Of a stretch of 64,000 bases of DNA, positions 6,934 through 7,724 are shown one piece after another. Position numbers and translations under genes: made by a program. Numbering within the stretch: the first letter of the stretch is position 1; each line of letters begins with the position of its first letter. Source of the DNA: Pseudomonas helmanticensis (lineage in GTDB: Bacteria; Pseudomonadota; Gammaproteobacteria; Pseudomonadales; Pseudomonadaceae); NCBI RefSeq assembly GCF_900182985.1, contig NZ_FXUY01000001.1:4289501-4353500 (forward strand), in the 5' to 3' direction. A model generated the notes under the pieces. It did not search any database. It was not told the origin of the DNA and saw only the letters and a program-made list of their open reading frames with translations.

Positions 6934-7171
6934 TTTTCCTACGCTCCATAGTGATTGGTCTTGGGTTAGTCCCGGAAAAATCGGGCAAGTTGCATGGTTG
7001 ATTCTGAACGATGCCAGCCATAGGAGGGTAGCTCTCTCCTTCCATTACGGCCAATACGTTGATTTTGTTGGTTTTTTAAACAATCACCGGTTTGCAGGGC
7101 GTTGCCTGCGTCCTTTTCTGACATCTGCGACCGGCTCGCAATTCCATAAGAATGAATTCTCCTACGAAATA

Positions 7172-7209
7172 ATCGTGCATTGCGCACGATCGCAGATGAC
7201 CCATCGTGC
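7172..7209. promoter_or_regulatory. Palindromic upstream activator-like element with extra half-site
   Basis: ATCGTGC and GCACGAT form inverted 7-bp arms around a 5-bp centre (7172-7190), and a third ATCGTGC follows at 7203-7209. The position, about 100-130 bp upstream of the sigma-54-type promoter, is where enhancer-binding proteins normally bind. The binding protein is unknown; AlgB, encoded next door, is the obvious candidate by inference. The site could also act on algB, whose start is ~240 bp away on the other side. Confidence 0.55.
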
Positions 7210-7282
7210 AGGATGCGTCGCTATTCATTTTTTACATCTATATAAGCCTTTGATTTTATTGATTATTTTTCAATTAAAAAAT

Positions 7283-7298
7283 TGGCACGCAGGCTGCA
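7283..7298 (+). promoter_or_regulatory. Sigma-54 (RpoN) -24/-12 promoter
   Basis: TGGCACGCAGGCTGCA matches the RpoN consensus (TGGCAC-N5-TTGCA type), with the GG and GC dinucleotides exactly 10 bp apart. Transcription should start near 7309, about 50 bp before the ATG at 7361. A very AT-rich stretch (about 7224-7284) separates it from the upstream palindrome and could serve DNA bending. The rest of the 427-bp algB-side gap (6934-7171) shows nothing further that I can identify. Confidence 0.7.
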
Positions 7299-7360
7299 AT
7301 ACCTCATTCAGCCCGGGCAGATCAGAACTGCCCCAACCGAATAAGAGTGAGGAACCCAGG

Positions 7361-7648
7361 ATGACTCGCCAACGCGCCGCCCAAGTACGCATCTCGCCAC
7401 TGCACATCCAGCAAGGTCTGTTTGGCGTACTTGCGCTGCTTATCACCCTGATTGCTTGCCAGCAATACCTGCGCTGGGAAAACAGCCAGCAGCCAGAGGC
7501 ACCGCTGATCTCGATGCAGCACAGCACCCAGAGTCATTTCAGCGCTGTCAGCAGCACCCAGGACGACAACGCGGCGATGCACATGATGGCGGTCGATCAG
7601 GCGCAGCCACTGGATCAAATGCCACGTGAAGAGCGTTGGGTTTTCTGA
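7361..7648 (+). CDS. Small single-pass membrane protein of unknown function
   Basis: This is a 95-residue protein that I do not recognise. The short basic N-terminus is followed by one hydrophobic helix (~residues 17-35, GLFGVLALLITLIAC) and a polar, Gln/Met/His-rich tail. A type II orientation with the tail in the periplasm fits the positive N-terminus. The ATG at 7361 was chosen because GAGG lies just upstream and because the open frame further upstream runs through promoter sequence. It is the first gene after the sigma-54-type promoter and probably heads a unit with the DUF1328 and Ivy genes. Confidence 0.7.
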   Translation: MTRQRAAQVRISPLHIQQGLFGVLALLITLIACQQYLRWENSQQPEAPLISMQHSTQSHFSAVSSTQDDNAAMHMMAVDQAQPLDQMPREERWVF

Positions 7649-7724
7649 CTGATTGAAAAATGAATTCAGGCGCGATGCGCCGGAACACGTAACACCCCTA
7701 AATAGAGAAGTAAGGAGAATCACC

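Follow-up and report, generated by a model that had tools for sequence, protein, structure and literature searches.

The stretch of Pseudomonas helmanticensis DNA analysed here (64 kb; below, the window) carries on its minus strand the genes of the sensor kinase KinB and the response regulator AlgB and, divergently from them, a unit of three genes that encode a 95-aa protein, a small DUF1328 membrane protein and an Ivy-family inhibitor (Table 1). SRGAFTGA is read in the AlgB translation, so that the regulator has the intact GAFTGA loop ascribed to it by the original prediction. A short GC hairpin found by a simple scan right after ivy (8369-8385) resembles a terminator and may mark the end of the unit.

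Table 1. Genes and predicted regulatory elements around algB (window coordinates)
Feature	Position	Strand	Basis and remarks
kinB, sensor kinase (start codon assumed)	3786-5582	-	PF16767 KinB_sensor, HisKA, HATPase
algB, NtrC-family response regulator, presumed activator	5587-6933	-	ORF; Response_reg, Sigma54_activat, HTH_8 domains
Further dyad-type box, on the algB side, CGGGCAAGTTGCATG	6982-6996	.	99% conserved in 81 loci
Candidate activator dyad 1, CGTGCATTGCGCACG	7174-7188	.	centre about -128 from predicted start; arms 99.8% conserved
Candidate activator dyad 2, CGTGCAGGATGCGTC	7205-7219	.	centre about -97; 7203-7217 99% conserved
Predicted IHF consensus site, TAAGCCTTTGATT (= WATCAANNNNTTR on the minus strand)	7243-7255	-	conservation
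Predicted sigma-54 -24/-12 promoter, TTGGCACGCAGGCTGCA	7282-7298	+	pattern matches and conservation
95-aa protein, one hydrophobic N-terminal stretch (by eye), ends EERWVF; MucE-like candidate AlgW activator	7361-7648	+	
DUF1328 small membrane protein, PA5482 type	7725-7889	+	PF07043, E 5.6e-17
Ivy-family C-type lysozyme / lytic transglycosylase inhibitor, PA5481/Ivyp2 type	7892-8356	+	PF08816, E 1.5e-42; PMC10746161

Promoter architecture and its conservation

From its sequence, the region between algB and the three-gene unit is almost certainly a promoter composed of two activator dyads, an IHF site and a sigma-54 element. The GG of the -24 box (7284-7285) and the GC of the -12 box (7296-7297) are separated by 10 bp, the spacing typical of sigma-54, and the position of the -12 GC predicts a transcription start at about 7309. 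The pattern TGGCACG-N4-CTGCA has no other zero-mismatch match in the window; when TGGCACG-N4-TTGCA was scored at all positions on both strands, the same place ranked highest with 11 of 12 bases, followed by a runner-up with 10. At up to two mismatches, the -24/-12 pattern occurs 13 times in the window against 11.9 occurrences expected by chance. Thus, the element alone proves little, and the proof lies in its conservation: it occurs at the corresponding place in all 80 further algB loci, with TGGCA and CTGCA 100% conserved in the alignment of the window with these loci. The 80 loci are the best of 587 relatives retrieved in one scan of a genome collection and are therefore mostly close kin.

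Upstream of the -24/-12 element, the original prediction had described an AT-rich spacer, a palindrome and a third half-site. The spacer contains a predicted IHF site, recognised by its match to the consensus and lying between the dyads and the -24/-12 element. Its consensus bases are 96% conserved in 81 sequences and its four N positions only 17%, the pattern expected of recognition by a protein. The palindrome is real, since the exact dyad CGTGC-N5-GCACG is kept in 78 of the 80 further loci (exceptions L049 and L070). The sequence described as a third half-site is also there; rather than standing alone, it forms the left arm of a further dyad that is less perfect, with 3 of 12 consensus bases differing. 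In the window, the two dyads start 31 bp apart, which is about three helical turns, so that they are arranged in tandem and in helical phase within the 80-150 bp upstream distance of enhancer-dependent promoters. Among 79 sequences scored, this spacing is 31 bp in 59 and 32 bp in 20, and dyad 1 starts 109 bp (45 sequences), 110 bp (17) or 111 bp (17) ahead of the -24 box. The motif CATCGTGC is present in 78 of the 80 further loci (exceptions L060 and L065). Over all 81 loci, the core bases of the dyads, the predicted IHF site and the -24/-12 element are 96-100% conserved, compared with 60% over the remaining 283 columns of 7003-7344.

The whole arrangement, hereafter the cassette, is far more specific than its parts. 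A relaxed search for the cassette met it once in the 64-kb window; it gave no match in the sequence flanking the 80 loci on their algB/kinB side (415,526 bp), nor in that lying further upstream at 78 of these loci (265,200 bp). The exact dyad by itself occurs at 11 places in the genome of origin, only one of which (that in the window) carries the cassette; the dyad alone is therefore not specific and was dropped as a sole marker of the regulon.

That these elements are accidental, or are parts of a sigma-70, AlgU or RpoS promoter, is highly improbable. Short degenerate sigma-54 patterns do turn up by chance in the window, but chance accounts poorly for the conservation, the fixed spacing and the regulon described below. 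Sigma-70 and AlgU promoters were considered as candidates and dropped: a simple scan of 6900-8600 gave no sigma-70-like site, and a scan of 6901-7400 for the AlgU-type GAACTT-N15-18-TCTGA (at least 5/6 and at least 4/5 bases) was likewise empty. A close parallel is the NtrC-dependent glnAp2 type of promoter, which also combines a sigma-54 -24/-12 element with a pair of activator dyads separated by about three turns near -100/-130. The promoter described here differs in the sequence of its dyads, in its conserved predicted IHF site and in its regulator and targets.

The cassette in other genomes and its relation to algB

A strict pattern for the whole cassette was matched in 72 of 298 Pseudomonadaceae genomes, belonging to 6 of 19 genera, while the reversed control gave no matches. 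We inspected 20 of these strict matches. We also read the algB upstream region in 20 genomes, among which 17 had given no strict match. The same cassette was found at the inspected places, in several genera beside algB and frequently twice; only one of the 20 algB upstream regions (L130) had no detected cassette. The copy close to algB has a dyad like CGTGCAAGTTGCACG, and the gene that directly follows it, where present, encodes a BON-domain or DUF2383 protein (four of each among the eight scanned). At L121, L122, L123 and L125, no separate gene was seen between the algB-proximal cassette and the next unit. The second algB-linked copy precedes the gene of a WVF-type small protein, which is followed by DUF1328. 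Seven of the 20 strict-match places lie away from algB, before genes for DUF3509-like proteins (L096 and L099, by eye), BON proteins (L097 by domain scan, L098 by eye) or BON proteins with DUF1328 nearby (L103-L105, L105 by domain scan). At one of the algB loci (L122 in genome G011, 102-1647), three cassette-like promoters are packed into 1.6 kb.

From 66 aligned cassettes (one place in G269 was counted twice), we built a sequence-only model of about 135 bp, named R1. The training cassettes come from 39 of the 298 genomes, all of which have AlgB, and many were found by looking beside algB. In the genome of origin, R1 finds seven places at E<=9e-7, each matching over most of the model's length; behind each of the six outside the training set lies an ATG ORF with a sequence resembling a ribosome site. 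Besides the unit in the window, the targets are genes for DUF3509, BON/OsmY-like, DUF2383 and DUF3182 proteins, a 309-aa protein without a family, and a 78-aa protein together with a PA3371-family gene. Both dyads are recognised within 4/12 mismatches in five of the seven matches, and one dyad in L139 and L141; the -12 or -24 box is a variant in L138 and L142, the latter also lacking a strict IHF site. The cassettes before the DUF3182 gene (L142, G000:C2:286204-286331) and the gene of the 309-aa protein (L141, G000:C1:514865-514979) are thus both imperfect. Another place (L143, G000:C1:1963554-1963623) has an IHF and sigma-54 half-cassette. At L140 (1667-1903; G000:C2 near 855039), where the upstream sequence is partly masked as N, the cassette is followed by the 78-aa protein, ending in ERLVF, and then by the PA3371-family gene.

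Genome G126 is called P. aeruginosa-like here because a published mucE primer matches it exactly and one of its proteins is 100% identical to a named P. aeruginosa one. It has five such R1 matches at E<=1.5e-8, which lead to DUF1328-ivy, to a BON gene with a CsbD gene, to two DUF3509 genes, and to a 91-aa protein ending in AWTF with a PA3371-family gene in its operon; the second dyad of L175 and the first dyad of L178 are weak. Two further R1 matches cover the later parts of the model only and precede a dicarboxylate-symporter gene and a flagellar rod gene. These are sigma-54 promoters of other regulators (under DctD and FleR control): their IHF and sigma-54 half resembles the cassette, but the matches do not begin before model position 33 and so leave out dyad 1.

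Three cassette-headed operons of G126 match PA3369-71, PA4738-39 and PA5481-82. The mapping to PA tags rests on the PA3371 family model and on the DUF1328-ivy order beside algB, and is presumptive for PA4738-39. The same cassette thus stands before several genes of the envelope- and osmotic-stress type, and it would mark a direct AlgB regulon. The designation of the window's genes as an envelope-defence unit in the original prediction is therefore fair but incomplete, as the unit is one of several cassette targets. In published expression data, these three operons make up seven of the 24 visible genes lowered in a PA2206-complemented strain relative to the PA2206 mutant (PMC3557286); in low shear, expression of the PA3370-71 operon falls together with that of PA5482-81 (PMC4981712), and PA5481-82 respond to LasR (PMC2018727).

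The identity of the activator was approached by searching for R1 and AlgB in the same 298 genomes, of which 250 were scored as having AlgB and 48 as lacking it. At E<=1e-5, R1 matched in 250/250 of the former and 11/48 of the latter; at E<=1e-7, in 249/250 (G056 being missed) and 3/48, so that the sites follow algB. Fisher's test gives p ~1e-48 for this association, a value that ignores shared ancestry, which inflates the association. Among the 211 AlgB-encoding genomes outside the R1 training set, 210 match at E<=1e-7. The three exceptions scored as lacking AlgB are a genome with algB in two pieces (G251), one with algB cut by a contig end (G196) and a 75% complete assembly (G211). In G056, whose algB is divergent, R1 matches are full-length but weak; one of them (L201) precedes an 83-aa protein ending in RWIF, near DUF1328.

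Ten algB-less genomes with 99-100% completeness were searched again at 1e-4, and nine had only the IHF and sigma-54 half or nothing: one (G163) had no R1 match, and eight had only matches starting at model position 40 to 62. The tenth (G009) has a match spanning 13-132 before a gene of an Fe-S biosynthesis family (L188) and a second half match. None of the four residual matches that we opened has recognisable dyads, and this lack sets the half-matches L187, L191 and L193 apart from the cassette by dyad count; L187 and L191 precede dicarboxylate-symporter genes. Genomes with and without algB occur within each of six genera (g1, g5, g9, g11, g16 and g17), which, judged from genus labels, makes several independent losses likely. 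Of 13 algB-less genomes searched for DUF1328, 10 gave no match at E<=1e-6. The three that kept it (G032, G130 and G144) have no R1 match at 1e-5 and no dyad pattern in the 3.1-kb loci, one of which (L170) has a single sigma-54-like pattern.

Because the cassette is present in 249/250 genomes with algB and in 3/48 without it, two of the three holding pieces of algB, AlgB is very probably the activator of the cassette. The original prediction, which named AlgB or another enhancer-binding protein as the driver of the unit, is strongly supported for AlgB by the cassettes beside algB and by this co-occurrence. The dyads by themselves name no protein, and genomes encode 5-18 relatives of AlgB at E<=1e-60, own AlgB included where there is one (40 genomes tested); another enhancer-binding protein, with a gene that happens to share the distribution of algB, might bind them. 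We consider such a protein improbable: the cassette adjoins algB in several genera, activators are commonly encoded beside their targets, the co-occurrence is near-perfect, and the algB-less members of the six mixed genera have no full cassette at E<=1e-7, apart from the incomplete G196 and G211.

In P. aeruginosa, KinB dephosphorylates AlgB and BphP phosphorylates it, phospho-AlgB is described as an indirect repressor of biofilm, and a figure legend of the same 2019 paper marks the genes downstream of AlgB as not known (PMC6932827). AlgB is also named among predicted biofilm regulators in an HT-SELEX atlas (PMC8041468). The system in the window consists of the same algB-kinB pair, with an NtrC-type, GAFTGA-containing AlgB; it differs in that a direct, cassette-defined regulon can be proposed downstream of the regulator.

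The RWVF-tailed protein and AlgW

The first gene of the unit was originally described as an unknown membrane protein. The 95-aa protein, which has one hydrophobic stretch, matches no Pfam or NCBIfam family; its description can be refined by its C-terminal RWVF, a tail of the AlgW-activating kind. Named homologues are annotated as hypothetical or uncharacterised, and a few are called lipoprotein. In the best 120 of 252 homologues, the tail is RWVF (109), RWIF (7) or HWVF (4), always W[VI]F. We also examined the ORFs behind the cassettes, with an aromatic residue or Leu, any residue, and Phe as the tail criterion. An ATG ORF of 60-125 aa follows 79 of 81 cassettes (L001-L080 and the window), ending in RWVF in 77 cases and in RWIF and HWVF in one each. 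The two others are L060, at a contig end, and L020, where a change of frame interrupts the gene and leaves its RWVF end in another frame. In a set of 140 cassettes, 109 have a tailed ORF (106 with WVF), a number for which the tail itself was a selection criterion; of the 31 that remain, most are algB-proximal cassettes with other targets. Thus, the C-terminal residues are almost constant among proteins whose middle part diverges. A search of the genome of origin for RWVF gave four pattern matches, two of which end in TGG instead of a stop codon; the two with a stop are the gene in the window and an oddly composed open frame of 65 codons. The algB-linked cassette of G126 is followed by DUF1328-ivy, and no ATG ORF of at least 40 aa lies before them.

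The significance of such a tail comes from MucE (PA4033). The tripeptide WVF and the MucE tail SVRDELRWVF bind and activate AlgW (PMC8545111), and PAO1 becomes mucoid when pilin or OprF carries an FTF tail, provided that algW is present (PMC3684759). Another study presents the MucE-AlgW-MucA-AlgU scheme with mucE driven by AlgU and unresponsive at its promoter to RpoN overexpression (PMC3819740). The 95-aa protein resembles MucE in being small, in its hydrophobic N-terminal stretch and in its C-terminal RWVF, but its gene has a predicted sigma-54 promoter beside algB, whereas mucE is AlgU-driven and, in G126, far from algB. The MucE of G126 ends in SVRDETRWVF, and the 95-aa protein aligns with it at 19.2 bits, with 23% identity over 92 columns; as only about 19 bits are shared, we propose that the protein works like MucE, not that it is MucE. 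No cassette match was found at mucE of G126 at E<=0.01, and algW was not recognised among the R1 matches of that genome. A known alternative link to RpoN is the algW promoter, reported as RpoN-dependent (PMC3750012).

On this basis, it is rather likely that the tail of the 95-aa protein activates AlgW. A less likely reading accepts the AlgB-sigma-54 control of the promoter and assigns the WVF tail to another PDZ or assembly partner, or regards it as a structural terminus in an envelope protein. In its favour, no homology to MucE can be demonstrated, a candidate counterpart in G126, the cassette-driven 91-aa protein located elsewhere (L177), ends in WTF, not WVF, and the protein of the PA3371 operon in the genome of origin (L140) ends in LVF, without an aromatic residue. 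Nevertheless, a tail that hardly varies on a protein whose middle drifts, the binding of both SVRDELRWVF and WVF by AlgW, and the algW-dependent mucoidy caused by FTF on pilin or OprF argue for AlgW as the partner.

A possible loop from AlgB to AlgU

Taken together, the observations suggest the following mechanism. Phosphorylated AlgB would bind the two CGTGCANNNTGCACG-type dyads, which lie about 97 and 128 bp upstream and on the same side of the helix, IHF would bend the DNA between dyads and promoter, and AlgB would remodel the RpoN holoenzyme, so that the gene of the 95-aa protein, DUF1328 and ivy are transcribed. The 95-aa protein is probably membrane-anchored and facing the periplasm, where its RWVF tail would bind the AlgW PDZ domain as the WVF of MucE does, leading to MucA cleavage and release of AlgU. 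We consider it likely that an AlgB-sigma-54 promoter makes an AlgW activator in this way; the architecture, its conservation, the regulon, the algB association and the tail are read from sequence, from which we infer AlgB binding, the use of RpoN and IHF, the topology and AlgW activation. The unit had also been placed outside the alginate genes usually discussed, which is probably not correct, because its first gene looks like that of an activator of the AlgW-MucA-AlgU pathway and may feed into alginate control.

In P. aeruginosa, algB reportedly depends on AlgU/AlgT, so that activation of AlgW by an AlgB-driven protein would close a loop: AlgU drives algB, AlgB with RpoN drives a WxF protein, and this protein acts through AlgW and MucA back on AlgU. 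The effect of KinB loss is reportedly AlgW-dependent, as the title of Damron 2009 states. When KinB is inactivated, mucoid conversion comes about by way of MucA proteolysis, in a manner dependent on AlgU and on RpoN (PMC12830090). We propose the AlgB-sigma-54-made AlgW activator as a candidate for the missing step between KinB loss and AlgW-dependent MucA proteolysis. For the broadest version, in which AlgB is the master of a conserved Pseudomonadaceae sigma-54 envelope-stress regulon feeding AlgW-MucA-AlgU, and a two-sigma-factor loop explains the RpoN- and AlgW-dependent mucoidy of kinB loss, the chances seem about even. Searches of the open-licence literature, judged by titles and the beginnings of abstracts, turned up no sigma-54 AlgB regulon or AlgB-driven WVF protein; Qiu 2007, Damron 2009, Damron 2012 and Chand 2012 lie outside that set, and an earlier description there is possible.

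AlgB has long been studied as an alginate regulator, and a readable promoter signature offers a testable regulon in any Pseudomonas. If the proposal is true, an AlgB-driven AlgW activator would provide a mechanism for the step between KinB/AlgB/RpoN and MucA proteolysis, and the light and quorum inputs to AlgB would be linked with an envelope-stress output.

A trace of a second promoter is visible on the algB side of the region. R1 gives a partial match at G000:C1:4296479-4296597, corresponding to 6979-7097 of the window (E 0.0026), which appears to be the remnant of an algB-proximal cassette: the dyad-like box at 6982-6996 is kept, while the IHF and sigma-54 parts have decayed. This box may now have a role in the autoregulation of algB. 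Other genera have an intact promoter at the equivalent position, frequently ahead of BON or DUF2383 genes.
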